IMG/VR virus record: IMGVR_UViG_3300025636_000018
Location: 1-30,225 of that record
Reading direction: 5' to 3' (one strand)
Source of the DNA: a virus
Length of the DNA stretch: 30,225 nt
Program-made: the position numbers and the translations under genes
The notes under the pieces: generated by a model
Told to the model about the DNA's origin: nothing
Seen by the model: only the letters and a program-made list of their open reading frames with translations
Database searches by the model: none
Part shown: positions 5,571 to 26,402 of the stretch, one piece after another
Layout: every line of letters begins with the position of its first letter
Numbering within the stretch: position 1 is the stretch's first letter

Positions 5571-6203
5571 ATGAACACGAATGATATGATCGAGAAAATC
5601 AAAGACGTTCTTAACTTATCCACAGAGATTAAGTTGGAACAACAAACGTTGGAAAACGGTGCTGTTTTGGAAGCAGAATCTTTTGAAGCTGGCAAAGAAG
5701 TTTTCATTGTTACAGAAGACGAGAAAGTTGCTGTACCTATTGGAGAGTATGAGCTTGAAGATGGTAGAGTGCTTGTAGTAGCAGAAGAGGGTTTGATATC
5801 TGAAATCAAAGAAGCTGGTGCAGAAGAGGAAACTCCAGAAGCAACAGAAGAAGAGGTTGAAGAAGTTGAAGCAGCAGAAGAAGAAAAGGAAGAGATGGGA
5901 TACGCTACTAAAGAGGAACTTGCAGAGGTAAAAGAAATGATTGAGGAAATCAAAGCAATGCTTGAGCCAAAGGAGGAAATGAGTTCAGAAGATTTAGGGA
6001 ATCTTATTACAGAGGAACTTGCAAAGCATGAAAGAACTGAATTGAGCGAAGTTCCAGAAGATGTACAAGCTGAACTTAATGAGCCAGCAGCAGAGCCAAT
6101 CAAAGCAAATCCAGAAAATAAAGCTTCTGTTAATTTTAACAGATTAGCTTCTAACAGACCAACAACAATTTTAGACCGAGTAATTAACAAAATAAATCAA
6201 TAA
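5571..6203 (+). CDS. Probable capsid scaffold protein
   Basis: The 210-aa protein is extremely acidic: residues 80-150 are almost only Glu, Ala, Val, Lys and Met, in long helical runs (EEEVEEVEAAEEEKEE, then EELAEVKEMIEEIKAMLEPK). That is the composition and coiled-coil layout of scaffold proteins, which guide capsid assembly and are then removed by the head protease. The N-terminal 75 residues look folded (VFIVTEDEKVAVPIGEYELEDG), and the basic C-terminus (FNRLASNRPTTILDRVINKI) could be the coat-binding end. It stands four bases before the capsid gene. The assignment rests on composition and position. Confidence 0.75.
   Translation: MNTNDMIEKIKDVLNLSTEIKLEQQTLENGAVLEAESFEAGKEVFIVTEDEKVAVPIGEYELEDGRVLVVAEEGLISEIKEAGAEEETPEATEEEVEEVEAAEEEKEEMGYATKEELAEVKEMIEEIKAMLEPKEEMSSEDLGNLITEELAKHERTELSEVPEDVQAELNEPAAEPIKANPENKASVNFNRLASNRPTTILDRVINKINQ
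5616..5624 (+). other. Isolated DnaA-box-like 9-mer (TTATCCACA)
   Basis: TTATCCACA is identical to the Escherichia coli DnaA box consensus. It lies alone inside the scaffold gene, with no second box, AT-rich repeat or gap nearby, so it may be chance. Confidence 0.15.
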
Positions 6204-16567: not shown

Positions 16568-16716
16568 AGCCATTTTATTACATAAATGAAAAAGAGGAAG
16601 AAGAGATTGATTTAATAGATTTATTTGAATATGCTTTTGACTATAAAGTTAATCATAAAAATTTAAAAAAAGGTCTTGACATAATTAAGAAGCATGTTAA
16701 TATAACAGAAAAATGA
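16564..16716 (+). CDS. Small acidic hypothetical protein (50 aa)
   Basis: It overlaps the ATPase gene and the PP-loop gene by ATGA junctions at each end. The N-terminal half is highly acidic (MKPFYYINEKEEEEIDLIDL), the rest Lys-rich (NHKNLKKGLDIIKKHVNITE). It shows no known motif. Confidence 0.55.
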   Translation: MKPFYYINEKEEEEIDLIDLFEYAFDYKVNHKNLKKGLDIIKKHVNITEK

Positions 16717-17546
16717 TAACAGTTAATAGTTTAAGCGGAGGGAAAACTTCCAGTTATATTGCTGCTAATTATAAAGCAGATTACAATGTTTTTGCTCTTG
16801 TAAGAACAAGTGATAAAAATTGCATGTTTCCAGATAAAAAAATCAGACAAGAAGTAAGCGACAAACTTGGGGTTGAATTTATTGGAACTTTGGAAGATGA
16901 TACAATAATATACACAATGATTGATCTTGAGCAGTATATAGGACAAGAAATATCTTGGGTAACTGGAAAGACTTTTGATGAGGTTATCATAAGAGGAGAT
17001 AAATATTTACCTAATGTTACTCAAAGATTCTGCACTCAAGATATGAAGTTAAAACCAATCTTCGACTGGTGGGATAAAAATTTTACTGATCCAGTTGAGA
17101 TGCGTATTGGATTTAGAGCTAATGAAACAAGAAGAGCAAAAAACATGATTGAGAAATCTGATAAAAATGGAAACTTATCTTTTAAAAAAATAGTTGGTAA
17201 AAGAGGAACAAGAAATAAGTGGGCGGACATATCTTGGCAAAAGCCAGTCTTTCCTTTAATAGATGACAATATTTATAAAGATTCAATTGAAAAGTACTGG
17301 AAAGATAAACCAGTTAGATTTGCATATATGAACAACTGTATTGGATGCTTTCACAGGAATCCAGTGCTGTTAAAATTAATGAGTGATAAACATCCAGAGA
17401 AATTTCAATGGTTTATAAATCAAGAAAACGAAAAGCGAACTTTTAAGAATGGAATGAAATACATTGATATTAAAAACAGTTTAAAACAAACAGAGCTCTT
17501 TGAAGATGACTTCAATGATTGTGACTCTGGATATTGTGGACTATAA
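16713..17546 (+). CDS. PP-loop ATPase / PAPS reductase-like protein
   Basis: The 277-aa protein opens with a PP-loop, SLSGGKTSSYIAANY (6-20), the SGGxxS nucleotide-binding motif of adenine nucleotide alpha hydrolases such as PAPS reductases and tRNA or DNA thiolation enzymes. Middle motifs include TQRFCTQDMKLKPIFDWW (103-120), which matches the RxCTxxxKxxP of PAPS reductase-like proteins, and MRIGFRANETRRAK. The C-terminal part has a Cys cluster (NNCIGCFHRNP and the final DCDSGYCGL), so an Fe-S or zinc site is possible. The substrate is unknown. Sulfur transfer, DNA or tRNA modification and nucleotide chemistry are all open. Confidence 0.75.
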   Translation: MITVNSLSGGKTSSYIAANYKADYNVFALVRTSDKNCMFPDKKIRQEVSDKLGVEFIGTLEDDTIIYTMIDLEQYIGQEISWVTGKTFDEVIIRGDKYLPNVTQRFCTQDMKLKPIFDWWDKNFTDPVEMRIGFRANETRRAKNMIEKSDKNGNLSFKKIVGKRGTRNKWADISWQKPVFPLIDDNIYKDSIEKYWKDKPVRFAYMNNCIGCFHRNPVLLKLMSDKHPEKFQWFINQENEKRTFKNGMKYIDIKNSLKQTELFEDDFNDCDSGYCGL

Positions 17547-18050: not shown

Positions 18051-18469
18051 TTGAAACGTTTAACAGAGATTTAAAAAGAGGGAAATATCATGAGAATGTT
18101 ATCCTGGAGGTAATTCAAAAGAAATACCCAAGAGCATTCATAAAGGATGGATACTGCAAGGAGTATGATATTTTTATCCCAGAGCTTGAAATCGGAGTAG
18201 AAGTGAAGAGTGATGAAAAAAGTAAATTCACTGGCAACATTGTAATAGAGATTGAATTTAATAACAGACCATCTGCATTAACCACAAGTAAAGCAAAGTA
18301 TTGGGTAATCTTTGATGGATATGCTTATCACTGGTTTTTAATAGATCGAATAAAAGACTGCATAAAAGAGAATCATCTCAACTGGGTGGAGTTTATTGGA
18401 AAAGGAGATACAAAAAGCAAAAAAGCTTATTTGATAAAAAAAGAAATATTATATAAATATAAGTTATGA
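18047..18469 (+). CDS. PD-(D/E)XK endonuclease-like protein
   Basis: The start is TTG at 18047, overlapping the TGA of the sigma-like gene. An in-frame ATG that keeps the motifs is missing. Residues 15-54 contain ENVILEVIQKKYPRAFIKDG, then YDIFIPELEIGVEVKSDEKS. The set of D41, E52 and K54 is a good PD-(D/E)XK active site, with E16 as the N-terminal helix acid. Lysogeny or recombination nucleases would be larger, so I think of a small restriction-like or Holliday/nicking nuclease. It overlaps the methyltransferase-like gene by four bases, an arrangement that resembles a restriction-modification pair. Confidence 0.7.
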   Translation: MIETFNRDLKRGKYHENVILEVIQKKYPRAFIKDGYCKEYDIFIPELEIGVEVKSDEKSKFTGNIVIEIEFNNRPSALTTSKAKYWVIFDGYAYHWFLIDRIKDCIKENHLNWVEFIGKGDTKSKKAYLIKKEILYKYKL

Positions 18470-19119
18470 AAGTACTTGAGTTGTTTGCTGGAAGCAGAAG
18501 CGTAGGGAAAGCAGCAGAATCTTTAGGATACGAAGTTTTCAGCTCTGACATTAATTCTTTTGATGGAATTGATTACGTTGTTGATATTATGGAGTTTGAT
18601 GTTAGCAAAGTTCCTTTTAAACCAGATATTATCTGGGCATCTCCTCCATGCACTTACTTTTCTGTTGCCAGCATTGGAAGACATTGGAATAAAGACCATA
18701 CTCCAAAGTCAGAAAATGCACTTGTTGGTGTTGCTATTGTCCAGAAAACTCTGGAGATTATAAGAGCTTTAAATCCAGAAAAGTTCTACATTGAGAATCC
18801 AAGAGGAAAGTTGCGAAAACTTCCAGTTGTTAGCGGACTCCCAAGAGCAACAGTTTGGTATTGCAAGTATGGAGATACAAGAGCAAAACCGACAGATATA
18901 TGGTCAAATAATATAAGGAGCTTGTTAAATCCAAACGGATGGATGCCAAGAAAACAGTGCTTTAATGGTAATCCTCACTGCCATCATGATAGGCAACCGA
19001 GAGGGTATCATGCAAAAAAAGCTCTTGGTGTTTTAGACAAAGGAACTCAAGGACTTAAAGGGAATTACAACAGAAGTAAAATCCCAGAACAATTATGTTT
19101 AGAAATTTTAAAAAGCTAA
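18466..19119 (+). CDS. C5-methyltransferase-like protein
   Basis: The 217-aa protein has a SAM-binding motif LELFAGSRSVGKAAESLGY (4-22), an acidic second motif (FSSDIN, 25-30) and the catalytic PC motif WASPPCTYFSV (57-67) with C62 as nucleophile, all typical of DNA cytosine-5 methylases. The usual ENV motif VI reads YIENPRGKL (108-116), which is a known variant group in phages. It lacks the large target recognition domain, so it is short. The C-terminal third has Cys/His (CFNGNPHCHHDR). Methylation of its own DNA against host restriction is the likely role. It overlaps the PD-(D/E)XK gene. Confidence 0.7.
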   Translation: MKVLELFAGSRSVGKAAESLGYEVFSSDINSFDGIDYVVDIMEFDVSKVPFKPDIIWASPPCTYFSVASIGRHWNKDHTPKSENALVGVAIVQKTLEIIRALNPEKFYIENPRGKLRKLPVVSGLPRATVWYCKYGDTRAKPTDIWSNNIRSLLNPNGWMPRKQCFNGNPHCHHDRQPRGYHAKKALGVLDKGTQGLKGNYNRSKIPEQLCLEILKS

Positions 19120-22011: not shown

Positions 22012-22776
22012 ATGAAAACAACAGAGATTAAAAGAGGAGAATTTCAACCTTATTACAACATCAAGAACTTAAAGATGGCAGAAGTCAATCGAGATGTATT
22101 TTTAAAACATTCACAAAACTTCAAGGATAAATTGAATGAGTTTGGATGGATGATGCCAATTGTAGTTTCAAAAGATGGAGATATTATTGAGGGACATCAC
22201 AGAGTGGTATCTGCTAAATTATTAAAGCAGAGAACAGTTCCAGCTTATATCGTGGACTGGGTAGATACTCAAGACCAGAAGCAACATCTTAATGCAATCA
22301 TAAACCTAAACAATGGAAACAAAGCTTGGACAACTTTAGATTATTTAAAAGCTTTTGCTAAAGAGAATAAGGATTACAAAACAGCTTATACTAATTATAT
22401 TAAAAATTCTAACAACATATCTGCTGGAAATATTGTGCACCTTTTCTTTGGATCAAATCCTGGAGGATTTAAAAAAGGAGAGTGCAAAATAAAAGACTTA
22501 AAGTTTTCTTTATATCTTTTAAGAAAAATATCTAATTTAGTAAGCAAATATGGAAAGAGAAACATTCAAGCTTATGGAGTTAGAGAGATGATAAAAATAG
22601 GATACATCAGTGCTTTTAATGACTACGAAGCAATGGACTTCCTATTCAAAGAATATGGAAAGTTGGCAAAAATAGAACATCCAGCAGCAACATCAATTTT
22701 AAGATTCAAGCCATTGATGGAAGCAACGCTACTGGAATTTAATAAATTAAGAAAAACAGTAAAAAATGAAATTTGA
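22012..22776 (+). CDS. ParB-like protein 1
   Basis: The 254-aa protein has a ParB/sulfiredoxin-type N-terminal domain: HSQNFKDKLNEFGWMMPIVV (33-52), then SKDGDIIEGHHRVVSAKLL with the conserved GHHRVxSA (61-68). ParB domains are CTPases or nucleases, or act as adaptors of modification enzymes. The C-terminal part is helical and Lys-rich, with SAGNIVHLFFGSNPGG and no clear homology for me. It is one of two ParB-like genes in this window. An AT-rich spacer of 24 bases precedes it. Confidence 0.7.
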   Translation: MKTTEIKRGEFQPYYNIKNLKMAEVNRDVFLKHSQNFKDKLNEFGWMMPIVVSKDGDIIEGHHRVVSAKLLKQRTVPAYIVDWVDTQDQKQHLNAIINLNNGNKAWTTLDYLKAFAKENKDYKTAYTNYIKNSNNISAGNIVHLFFGSNPGGFKKGECKIKDLKFSLYLLRKISNLVSKYGKRNIQAYGVREMIKIGYISAFNDYEAMDFLFKEYGKLAKIEHPAATSILRFKPLMEATLLEFNKLRKTVKNEI

Positions 22777-23538: not shown

Positions 23539-24129
23539 ATGGAACTGATTGATATAAGAAAAGTAATAAAGAATCCAGACAATCCAAGAATCATAAGGGA
23601 TACAAAGTATCATAAACTTGTTAAAAGCATTAAAGAGTTTCCAGAGATGCTTAAGCTTAGACCAATTGTTGTAAACAATGATATGGTTGTGCTTGGAGGT
23701 AATATGAGATTGAGAGCTTGTAAAGAAGCTGGATTGAAAGAGGTCTGGATAATGAAAGCAGACAATCTTACTCCAATGCAAGAAAGAGAGTTTGTCGTAA
23801 AAGACAATGTAAACTTCGGAGAGTGGGACTGGGATTTATTGGCTAATGAATGGAACTCCGTTGAGCTTGAGGACTGGGGTATGGATAACTGGCAGAATAT
23901 GGATGACATTGAAACCAGTGATGCTTTCTCACTTCCAGATGGAGAGAAAGAGCCATTTCAACAGCAGACTTATACTCTTGCAGATAAACAAGTGGAGTTC
24001 ATAAAAGAAGCAATAAAAGAAATAAGACAAACAGAGGAGTTCAAATACGTTGAAACTTTTGGGAATGAGAACTCAAATGGAAACGCTTTATATTTATTAG
24101 TAAGCCAATGGGTAGAGCAAAGGAAATAA
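23539..24129 (+). CDS. ParB-like protein 2, coupled to Mom-like enzyme
   Basis: The N-terminal 70 residues carry a ParB-type domain: IKNPDNPRIIRDTKYHKLVK (10-29), SIKEFPEMLKLRPIVVNNDM, then VVLGGNMRLRACKEAGL (51-67), with the GGNMRLRA signature. After QEREFVVKDNVNFGEWDWDL (79-98), an element typical of ParB domains joined to DNA methylases, the rest is acidic (residues 100-150) and helical. The gene ends 22 bases inside the Mom-like gene, so the pair is co-translated. A role as guide or target recognition partner of the modification enzyme is inferred. Confidence 0.7.
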   Translation: MELIDIRKVIKNPDNPRIIRDTKYHKLVKSIKEFPEMLKLRPIVVNNDMVVLGGNMRLRACKEAGLKEVWIMKADNLTPMQEREFVVKDNVNFGEWDWDLLANEWNSVELEDWGMDNWQNMDDIETSDAFSLPDGEKEPFQQQTYTLADKQVEFIKEAIKEIRQTEEFKYVETFGNENSNGNALYLLVSQWVEQRK

Positions 24130-24773
24130 TCGTAAAAGTTATAAACTCTAAAGTAGCGAATGCTTTTGTAAAAAAACATCACTATTCTGGAAAGGTTGTT
24201 AATATGAGCAGTCTGCACTTCGGATGCTTCCTGGATAACCAATTGCATGGAGTAATGAGCTATGGAAGTCCAATGGATAAAAGAAACGTTCTTCCTTTAG
24301 TGGATTCTGGTGAAACAGATATAAACAAGAGATGGAATGAGATGTTAGAGCTTAACAGAATGGCTTTTGATGATTATCTTCCAAAGTATTCAGAGAGTAG
24401 ATGTATTGCAATCAGTATCCGCATGATCAAAAAGAATGCACCGCAGATTAAATGGATATTAAGCTACTCGGATGCAACGCAGTGCGGAGATGGAACAATA
24501 TACAGAGCCAGCGGATTTAAGCTAACACAAATAAATAAAAACGGAACAATATATCAACTTGCAAATGGAGAGATAGTAGCGAAGCGTGGAGATAGTAAGT
24601 ATGACTTTAAAGGAGCTAAAGCTCTTGAAGGATTCCAAAATAGGTACATTCTCTTAATAGATAAAAGCTGTAAGATAGTGCCAGAGATATTAGACTTCAA
24701 AATGATTGATGAGCTTGGAGCTGGTATGTATAAAGGAGAAAAAATAACCCTCCAGGAGAGGAGGGAAACTTAG
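24108..24773 (+). CDS. mom: Mom-like DNA modification enzyme
   Basis: The 221-aa protein resembles phage Mu Mom, a GNAT-fold enzyme that changes adenines in phage DNA to a carbamoylmethyl form and so blocks restriction enzymes. Visible are KKHHYSGKVV (22-31), a Mom-like metal-binding HHY, ELNRMAF (81-87), SESRCIAISIRMIKKNAPQI, then KWILSYSDATQCGDGTIYRA with D122 and Y132 in the SxxDxxxxGxGTIYxAxxF pattern. In Mu Mom, corresponding His-Tyr, Asp and Tyr residues matter for activity. The close of the gene holds a CCCTCC/GGAGGG hairpin. ParB-like protein 2 is its upstream partner. Confidence 0.75.
   Translation: MGRAKEIIVKVINSKVANAFVKKHHYSGKVVNMSSLHFGCFLDNQLHGVMSYGSPMDKRNVLPLVDSGETDINKRWNEMLELNRMAFDDYLPKYSESRCIAISIRMIKKNAPQIKWILSYSDATQCGDGTIYRASGFKLTQINKNGTIYQLANGEIVAKRGDSKYDFKGAKALEGFQNRYILLIDKSCKIVPEILDFKMIDELGAGMYKGEKITLQERRET
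24748..24765 (+). other. GC-rich hairpin at end of Mom-like gene
   Basis: CCCTCC (24748-24753) pairs perfectly with GGAGGG (24760-24765) around AGGAGA, with no T run after it. It lies nine bases before the tRNA-like element and may be an RNA structure or part of a packaging site. Confidence 0.4.
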
Positions 24774-24843
24774 AGCGGTGAGGTCGATATGAACGCCATC
24801 TCTTGACTGGATGCCAAGTATTTTACTTTTAAACTACCACCGC
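24774..24843 (-). tRNA. Degenerate tRNA-Gly(UCC)-like element
   Basis: The - strand from 24843 to 24774 is 70 bases and folds as a tRNA. A seven-pair acceptor stem is GCGGTGG/TCACCGC. TA follows at positions 8-9. The D-arm is GTTT-AAAAGTA-AAAT. A five-pair anticodon stem is CTTGG/TCAAG with loop CATCCAG, giving anticodon TCC. The T-arm has loop TTCATAT on a weak stem (GGCG/CGACC with a bulged A). It departs from a normal tRNA at key sites: A in place of U33, U in place of A58, and A where G18 is expected. The overall alignment with bacterial tRNA-Gly(UCC) is still good. A 7/8 TAnnTTTG-like box (TAACTTTA) lies upstream on the - strand at 24877-24870. A pseudo-tRNA, a tRNA mimic or a packaging structure are all possible. 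Confidence 0.5.
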
Positions 24844-24907
24844 ATTTGAATAGAATGAAAACATTGAGATAAAGTTACAAAAAATAAGGATATAATATAA
24901 AAAAGTT
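24844..24907. other. Short gene-free spacer before terminase
   Basis: These 64 bases are AT-rich and hold no gene. No good + strand promoter box is visible. Together with the tRNA-like element they form the 134-base gap before the terminase small subunit, where pac or cos sites often lie. Confidence 0.3.
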
Positions 24908-25264
24908 ATGAACAAAACTGAACAACATAAAAAAGCAATAATTGAAGCACTGGAGAAATCTCTGGGTGTGGTAACAACTGCATGTAAGAAAGTTGGAGTA
25001 GGAAGAACAACATTTTATGGATGGTTAAAAGATGATCCAGAGTTTGCTGAAAAAGTAAATGATATCCAGGAAATCGCTCTTGACTTTGTTGAGAGTAAAT
25101 TATTTGAAAATATCAAAGATGGTAAAACAGCAGAGATGATCTTCTACTTAAAGAGCAAAGGAAAGAAAAGAGGATACGTTGAAAGACAAGAAATAACTGG
25201 AGCTGATGGAATGCCAACTGATTTTAAAATTGAGATAATTGACAAGATCAAGGATACAGACTAA
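24908..25264 (+). CDS. Terminase small subunit
   Basis: The 118-aa protein has an N-terminal helix-turn-helix, EALEKSLGVVTTACKKVGVG, then RTTFYGWLKDDPEFAEKVND (about 13-52), typical of small terminases that recognise the packaging site. A long helix follows (EIALDFVESKLFENIKDGKT), then AEMIFYLKSKGKKRGYVERQ, the known end of this family. The overlap of 26 bases with the large subunit gene is in line with coupled translation. Confidence 0.85.
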   Translation: MNKTEQHKKAIIEALEKSLGVVTTACKKVGVGRTTFYGWLKDDPEFAEKVNDIQEIALDFVESKLFENIKDGKTAEMIFYLKSKGKKRGYVERQEITGADGMPTDFKIEIIDKIKDTD

Positions 25265-26402
25265 CATTGTCTACCGCCATTTGCAGAACAGTACTGGCAA
25301 AATAGCAATACACGAGGGTGGAACAAGAAGTGGAAAGACTTGGAATGTTTTACTCTTCCTTGTTTTTGACTATTGCTTAAGCTCTAAAGGAAGAACATTG
25401 ACTATTTGCAGAAAGACTTTCCCAAGCGTTAGAGCTACTGTCATGCGTGATTTCTTAACTATATTGAAGCAGTATGGACTTTATAGAGAAGAGAATCATA
25501 ATAAATCAAATAGTGAATACAAGCTAAATGGAAATCTCATTGAATTTATTTCTGTTGATCAACCGCAAAAGATAAGAGGTCGCAAAAGAGATATCTTATT
25601 TATTAATGAAGCCAATGAGCTGGACTATGAAGATTGGCAACAGTTAGTATTCAGAACGCAAGAGAAAATCATAATTGATTACAATCCATCTGATGAATAC
25701 CACTGGATATATGACAAGGTTATCCCAAGAGATGATGCTGACTTTTATCGAACAACTTATTTAGACAATCCATTCCTGGAGCAGAGCATCGTTGAGGAGA
25801 TTGAGCGTTTAAAGGAAACAGATGAACAATACTGGCAAATATACGGACTTGGACAGAGAGGAATCAGTAAAGCAACTATCTTTAAGTATTATGAAACTGA
25901 TAAGATTCCATATGATGCAGAGTTTGTGAGCTTTGGAGCTGATGCTGGATATACAAATGACCCAAGCACTTTAGTATCTGTATATAAGAAAGATTACAAT
26001 CTATATATCCAAGAGCATCTTTATAGAACAATGATGACAACAAAGGATTTAAGCGACCATTTTAAACAAGTGGGAGTTGGGAGGAATACTATCTTTTTTG
26101 ATTCAGCAGAGCCACGTTTAATTGATGAATTGAGGAGAATGGGACACAATATACAACCATCATTAAAAGGAAGAGATTCTGTAAATGCTGGTATTGATTT
26201 ATTGAAGAGATTCAAGATACATATTACAAAGGATAGTGATCATGCAATCCAGGAGTTTAGAAACTATAAATGGCAAGAGGACAGAAGTGGAAAGCTGACA
26301 AATAAACCAGTGGATAAGAACAACCATATTATTGATGCTGTCAGGTATGCAACTTACTCATTATTAAGCAGACCGAACTTTGGTAAATATGCTGTCCATT
26401 AA
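25239..26402 (+). CDS. Terminase large subunit
   Basis: The 387-aa protein is the packaging motor ATPase and nuclease (PBSX family look). The start is TTG at 25239; a stop codon lies directly before it and no ATG precedes the conserved IQTNIVYRHL. Walker A is GGTRSGKT (27-34), Walker B is DILFINEA (118-125), with LSSKGRTLTICRKTFPSVRA (47-66) between. The nuclease domain has FGADAGYTND (232-241, D235) and the last acidic site in HIIDAVRYATYSLL (D366). The length is a little short of the usual 400-450 aa. The next gene is not the portal but a tail gene, which is unusual. Confidence 0.9.
   Translation: MTRSRIQTNIVYRHLQNSTGKIAIHEGGTRSGKTWNVLLFLVFDYCLSSKGRTLTICRKTFPSVRATVMRDFLTILKQYGLYREENHNKSNSEYKLNGNLIEFISVDQPQKIRGRKRDILFINEANELDYEDWQQLVFRTQEKIIIDYNPSDEYHWIYDKVIPRDDADFYRTTYLDNPFLEQSIVEEIERLKETDEQYWQIYGLGQRGISKATIFKYYETDKIPYDAEFVSFGADAGYTNDPSTLVSVYKKDYNLYIQEHLYRTMMTTKDLSDHFKQVGVGRNTIFFDSAEPRLIDELRRMGHNIQPSLKGRDSVNAGIDLLKRFKIHITKDSDHAIQEFRNYKWQEDRSGKLTNKPVDKNNHIIDAVRYATYSLLSRPNFGKYAVH

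Follow-up and report, generated by a model that had tools for sequence, protein, structure and literature searches.

A glycine tRNA-like gene beside mom in phages and prophages and its proposed role in DNA modification

The locus described here raises the question of why a phage would keep, directly behind a gene for a DNA modification enzyme, an element that resembles a glycine tRNA and yet departs from normal tRNA. The locus lies in IMG/VR virus record IMGVR_UViG_3300025636_000018, whose 30,225 bases are called the window below, and the element in question is a 70-nt sequence on the minus strand, placed 1 bp past the mom stop codon. A nucleotide search with 12 kb of the window against named phages gave no match. 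An earlier note on this DNA, made from its letters alone, had read the element as a decayed tRNA, a decoy for a tRNA-targeting defence or a packaging signal. Comparison with its counterparts elsewhere suggests a different answer, namely that it is very likely a phage-encoded, non-translating glycine tRNA that would feed a glycyl group to the adjacent Mom protein. A scan of IMG/VR with the window Mom yielded 80 loci, or 81 with the window, and this clade holds 47 distinct element sequences, sense or antisense to mom. The element and two of its parts are located as follows.

24774..24843, minus strand: Mom-associated glycine-tRNA-like gene, 70 nt (RF00005 match, own covariance model, covariation, minimum-energy fold)
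24809..24811, minus strand: UCC anticodon triplet (C35 and C36 in 47/47 distinct clade elements; wobble base U, A or C)
24784, minus strand: bulged A at position 63 of the T stem (the same base in all 47 distinct clade elements)

Structure and tRNA identity of the element

The Rfam tRNA model, RF00005, spans the full element from 24843 to 24774 on the minus strand and scores 31.4 bits against a gathering score of 29 (E 1.2e-4 in 601 bp searched), exactly where the earlier note had placed a tRNA-Gly(UCC)-like structure with non-canonical features. Of the programs proposed in that note, the tRNA model recovers the element and ARAGORN does not; a scan of the whole window against Rfam with default filters also left 24774-24843 undetected, in both cases because the element departs from normal tRNA. 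A covariance model built from the elements scores the window copy at 84 bits, with near-identical sequences being part of that model. The minimum-energy fold agrees with the proposed structure, the D arm excepted, and folding compared with shuffled sequences is better on the minus strand (z -2.1) and hardly better on the plus strand (z -0.9). The element is also GC-rich (46% vs 34% for the window), as had been remarked from the letters.

In the window, the acceptor stem is formed by GCGGUGG and UCACCGC, followed by U as the discriminator base, and is accompanied by a 4-bp D stem, a 6-bp anticodon stem that closes the 5-nt loop AUCCA and a T stem of 4 bp plus a bulged A. The D loop reads AAGU where G18G19 is expected, U33 is replaced by A (the base preceding UCC) and position 58 is not A, so the residues first listed as altered are indeed altered and the anticodon triplet is UCC. 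What had been called a weak T stem is a stem of 4 bp with a bulged A, a form supported by covariation in relatives.

In 29 distinct sequences, 609/609 base-pair cells agree with a cloverleaf whose anticodon stem has 6 bp and whose T stem has the bulged A; both sides have changed in 16 of the 21 pairs, and the covariation score is 0.80 (0.26 in shuffles). Such paired changes, which the earlier note had proposed looking for in related phages, occur in all four arms. A standard 5-bp T-stem register was considered and rejected, since it leaves two positions unpaired in 29/29 sequences whereas the bulged-A register fits all 29. Across the 47 distinct clade elements, pair 51:63 is unpaired in every one and pair 49:65 in 44, the anticodon arm has a 6-bp stem closing a loop of 5 or 6 nt, and not a 7-nt loop with U33, in 46, and GG is missing from the D loop in 22.

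These data bear directly on the proposal of a decayed tRNA gene or an attachment-site remnant of integration, a reading that would account for the failure of ARAGORN and the absence of several canonical tRNA residues. All pairs are kept by compensatory change, the bulge is invariant, the element has a constant place after mom, and a broken acceptor stem is found only in the one mom-less lineage described below. Judged by this comparison of sequences, the element is not decayed, and a remnant of this kind has next to no probability.

The experimentally known identity elements for bacterial glycine are G1:C72, C2:G71, U73, C35 and C36 (PMC9976931). All five are present in 47/47 distinct clade elements. 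Among the distinct elements from the survey of bacterial genomes described below, G1:C72 and C2:G71 occur in 46/46 and U73 in 45/46; the sole A73 element (L220 5847-5918) lies in a Saccharibacteria metagenome-assembled genome (MAG), ends in CCA and belongs to a class in which 18 of the 20 tRNA-Gly genes read also have A73. As far as these positions tell, bacterial glycine is the only tRNA identity visible in the element. By contrast with its T stem, those of cellular host tRNA-Gly genes are fully paired (10/10 correctly framed genes). When the element model was run over 395 Bacteroidota genomes, a mom-linked copy was the only match above 60 bits (79.1); the remaining top matches, none of which exceeds 56.5 bits, are ordinary tRNA-Gly genes with no mom nearby. 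In the cell-wall tRNA-Gly of S. aureus, the pairs that contact EF-Tu, 49-65 and 51-63, are altered and G18G19 is lost (PMC4052509, PMC9976931). The element fits this Staphylococcus-type non-proteinogenic pattern, in which glycine identity is retained while the EF-Tu contact pairs and G18G19 are changed.

The same features weigh on the possibility that the element counters tRNA-cutting defences of the host, as a decoy or a replacement tRNA, or that it supplements the decoding of GGA codons. Its UCC anticodon would suit such a role, and GGA is, as first reported, very common in this phage (319 of 528 Gly codons). The arms required for decoding are nevertheless altered: the anticodon loop has 5-6 nt and is closed by a sixth pair, U33 is missing, the wobble base varies, the T stem is bulged and the D arm is absent in Proteobacteria. 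Neither a decoy nor a supplement would explain why the element is tied to mom across phyla or why its charging signals are those of bacterial glycine only, and both are very unlikely.

Association with mom in phages and prophages

The terminase genes that the earlier note placed behind the element do follow it, but the key neighbour is the gene on its other side, which ends at 24773 and had not been recognised as mom.

24108..24773, plus strand: mom, Mom-family DNA modification enzyme with a GNAT fold (PF25680 2.3e-43; PHROG 1384)

A profile of Mom relatives run against the Protein Data Bank (PDB) had a single match, the Mom protein of phage Mu (8bv8, 2.3e-36), and the predicted structure of the window protein (predicted local distance difference test, pLDDT, 87.6) has 8bv8 as its best PDB fold match (1.3e-16), with GNAT acetyltransferases next. 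By profile and predicted fold, then, the product of 24108-24773 is a Mom protein.

The element stands beside mom in 81/81 clade loci, at -3 to +30 bp from the stop codon in 78 and after a second mom copy in 3. The association was also recovered in the other direction, by scans that began with the element. A pattern for the anticodon and T arms hit 43 contigs with 36 new loci, and mom adjoins the element in 35 of these; the remaining contig ends at the element. The partner Moms found in this way fall as low as 28-35% identity to the window Mom, and two of these distant proteins (loci L103 and L185) clearly belong to PF25680. A second pattern, for a form without a D arm, gave 80 new loci, of which 72 have mom on the same strand within 700 bp. 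The eight misses comprise five contigs cut off near the element and three in which the same mom-less sequence recurs, its 5' acceptor strand broken.

Two arrangements seen at these loci are recorded here for their own sake. In L012, L027 and L035, mom is tandemly duplicated and a single element is placed after the second copy. In the mom-less lineage (L311, L333 and L358), a D-armless element survives in its 3' two thirds and has no 5' acceptor strand left, which makes it a true pseudo-element.

The other neighbours of the element were examined in the same manner; the terminase genes are given as context and lie outside the proposed system.

23539..24129, plus strand: ParB/sulfiredoxin-like protein upstream of mom (weak PF02195 match; ParB PHROGs)
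24908..26402, plus strand: terminase small and large subunit genes

Among 78 loci with related terminases (identity at least 74%), the element is present in 10 of the 13 with mom and 1 of the 65 without it (Fisher p 2e-9), and the contig of that single case starts at the element. No element was found at 29 terminase loci that are ParB-positive and mom-negative, which rules out the ParB gene in place of mom as the partner of the element. Since the element is absent from mom-less terminase and ParB loci, its presence cannot be put down to the terminase or to the ParB gene.

It had been suggested that the element is a structured packaging signal, and a cis-regulatory structure of the mom or terminase transcript can be considered with it. 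The position between mom and terminase, with terminase homologues downstream in 66/71 testable loci, would agree with either. A packaging site (cos/pac) was rejected, as the element is not conserved with terminase and 64 of 65 related mom-less terminase loci lack it, and prophage loci mostly without a matching terminase still keep the element with mom. A cis-element of the mom mRNA is ruled out by occurrence in both orientations relative to mom; on the Mom tree, at least 11 switches of orientation are required by parsimony, five of them forced by supported branches, and these repeated switches argue that the element RNA acts in trans. As antisense copies also have a promoter-like box and terminator of their own (see below), a packaging or cis-acting role is extremely unlikely.

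A survey of bacterial genomes, with one genome per species, returned 62 Mom relatives on contigs labelled as many phyla. An element lies near mom in 50 of these 62 prophage loci, 46 of them at -3 to +84 bp; a 51st match, in L227, is 2 kb from mom and was left out of the count. Twenty of the 50 elements, mostly from Proteobacteria, are D-armless, and a second covariance model (R2) was built for this class. Most D-armless elements have a connector of type GAAGYAGGCGATG and an encoded CCA, and the bulged A is present in all distinct ones. An isolate, Psychrobacter phage Y8A, carries two tandem D-armless copies between mom and terminase; the publication on this phage states that it has no tRNA genes (PMC10434257). 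Rfam gave no hit at the three isolate loci scanned, because the D-armless forms of Y8A fall outside the tRNA model. It is likely that phages of many phyla encode an undescribed tRNA family, in some cases D-armless, that would serve solely to carry glycine to a DNA-modifying enzyme.

Variants of the arrangement were also seen in this range of loci. Two tandem elements follow one mom in L081 (3662-3799), L217 (5810-5979) and L258 (1499-1639). Behind the mom gene of L201, from a Tenericutes MAG, lies a tRNA-like sequence (5735-5793) with a CCA end and apparently no anticodon arm, which fits both element models poorly.

Expression signals and proposed function

Two stretches of the window, both read on the element's strand, were compared with other antisense loci.

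24738..24765, minus strand: terminator-like hairpin CCCTCC-TCTCCT-GGAGGG (24765-24748) followed by TTATTTTTTC, inside the mom 3' end
24844..24907, minus strand: 5' flank of the element on its own strand, the region of a -7 box in other antisense loci (no exact box here)

The hairpin at 24765-24748 had escaped the first reading of this DNA. A hairpin with a T run on the element strand is found in the mom 3' end of most antisense loci and in none of the mom 3' ends of sense loci. Upstream on the same strand, an exact Bacteroidetes-type -7 box (TAnnTTTG) precedes 14 of 26 distinct antisense elements, compared with 3.5 expected by shuffling, and 11 of these 14 boxes sit 4-12 nt from the element.

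The Mom protein of phage Mu converts adenine to N6-(carbamoylmethyl)adenine, a purinyl glycinamide. An acyl-CoA, for instance 'glycyl coA' (PMC7824862), was long taken to be the donor for this reaction, and a 2025 meeting report (Silva, New England Biolabs) states that Mu adenine hypermodification needs tRNA-Gly for the glycyl group. A pathway can be proposed in which the element is transcribed from its own strand, or within the mom transcript where it is sense, and is charged by the host glycyl-tRNA synthetase (GlyRS). EF-Tu and the ribosome would make little use of the charged RNA, given its bulged or mismatched T stem, its 5-6 nt anticodon loop, the lack of U33 and, in some elements, the missing D arm. 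Mom would then take the glycyl group from the charged element and transfer it to N6 of adenine in phage DNA, which would protect the DNA from restriction. Glycyl transfer would first give N6-glycyladenine, an isomer of N6-(carbamoylmethyl)adenine, and a subsequent rearrangement could lead from it to the known Mom product. The gene itself, its conserved structure, its link to mom, the retained signals for glycine charging and the altered translation parts are observed; that it is transcribed, charged, passed over by EF-Tu and used by Mom is inferred.

It is unlikely that the element RNA is instead a partner of Mom and not its donor, for example an inhibitor (an RNA antitoxin), a guide or a glycine-supply sensor that restrains a toxic Mom until late infection. 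Its tight linkage to mom in trans-acting arrangements would agree with such a role, but a mere binder needs neither the full GlyRS identity set, including the distal C35 and C36, nor a discriminator that matches the host class, and the meeting report on Mu names tRNA-Gly as required for glycyl transfer.

Several observations weigh against the proposal that the element is a glycine donor for Mom. Twelve of the 62 prophage mom loci have no nearby element, and neither element model matches phage Mu or any of eleven further phage records checked that have Mom-like genes; these loci indicate that the element is not obligatory for Mom. Some of the genome loci are short MAG contigs that are possibly misbinned, and many loci are closely related, so the counts overstate independence. 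The structural rule is also broken in places: 8 of the 28 D-armed genome elements, from certain Clostridia, have a different base at the T-stem bulge or a complete T stem, and the CC of the anticodon is lost in the second copy of L217. Finally, the window has no clear promoter for the element, as a sigma-70 scan predicted none on the minus strand and there is no exact TAnnTTTG box.

If the proposal of a private glycyl donor is correct, Mom systems of this type would have two parts, an enzyme and its own aminoacyl-RNA, and perhaps a third in the ParB-like protein. The gene for the latter directly precedes mom in 80/80 testable related loci and 58/62 prophage loci, and its product may be a candidate third component. 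The window also encodes a second, weaker ParB-like protein at 22012-22776, about 1.3 kb upstream of mom, as well as a PAPS-reductase-like gene at 16713-17546 and a DNA-methyltransferase-like gene at 18466-19119.

Significance and comparison with known systems

That Mom modifies phage DNA and that some tRNA-Gly are kept out of translation was already known, and the meeting report had described the need of Mu Mom for tRNA-Gly. In the open-access PMC literature searched, which did not extend to preprints, there is no description of a Mom-linked tRNA gene or of a phage tRNA reserved for DNA modification, and there is a strong chance that the element represents a new tRNA class. Its members would, to our knowledge, be the first tRNAs dedicated to modifying DNA. 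The elements provide independent comparative evidence for glycyl-tRNA as the Mom donor, and the matched enzyme and RNA make this mechanism testable. If the mechanism holds, it would show how a virus diverts an amino acid from translation without starving its own protein synthesis. The elements also form a class of RNA overlooked by standard tRNA annotation, as in Y8A, and offer a possible tool for attaching amino acids to DNA.

Like Mom of phage Mu (8bv8), the window Mom belongs to the same family, has the same fold and is predicted to use the same donor; unlike the window, Mu has no element beside mom by the models used, and would have to use host tRNA-Gly. The GNAT fold is shared with TacT-type toxins, which act on glycyl-tRNA-Gly and read U73 and G71 (PMC9976931). 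TacT acetylates the charged glycine to block translation, whereas Mom is proposed to move the glycyl group to DNA. A relation of Mom to TacT in particular was considered and set aside, since the top list of the fold search contains Mu Mom and general GNATs and no TacT.

Like bacterial tRNA-Gly(UCC) and other members of RF00005, the element has a homologous cloverleaf and the glycine identity set. Ordinary tRNA-Gly genes differ from it: their T stems are paired throughout, their anticodon loops have 7 nt, they lie away from mom and they score at most 56.5 bits with the element model, as opposed to 79 for the mom-linked copy.

The non-proteinogenic tRNA-Gly of S. aureus is similar to the element in that it is derived from tRNA-Gly and changed at 49-65, 51-63 and G18G19 (PMC4052509, PMC9976931). 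It is set aside for non-ribosomal glycine transfer to the cell-wall pentaglycine, and a corresponding use, with DNA as the acceptor, is proposed for the element. The S. aureus tRNAs have complete T stems with weak pairs, are chromosomal and serve Fem transferases; no Fem-type gene was found among the Pfam-scanned neighbours in the window, where the constant neighbours are mom and the ParB-like gene. The element differs from the S. aureus type in being phage-borne and linked to mom, with a mostly bulged T stem, an anticodon loop of 5-6 nt and, in Proteobacteria, a cloverleaf reduced by the loss of its D arm.
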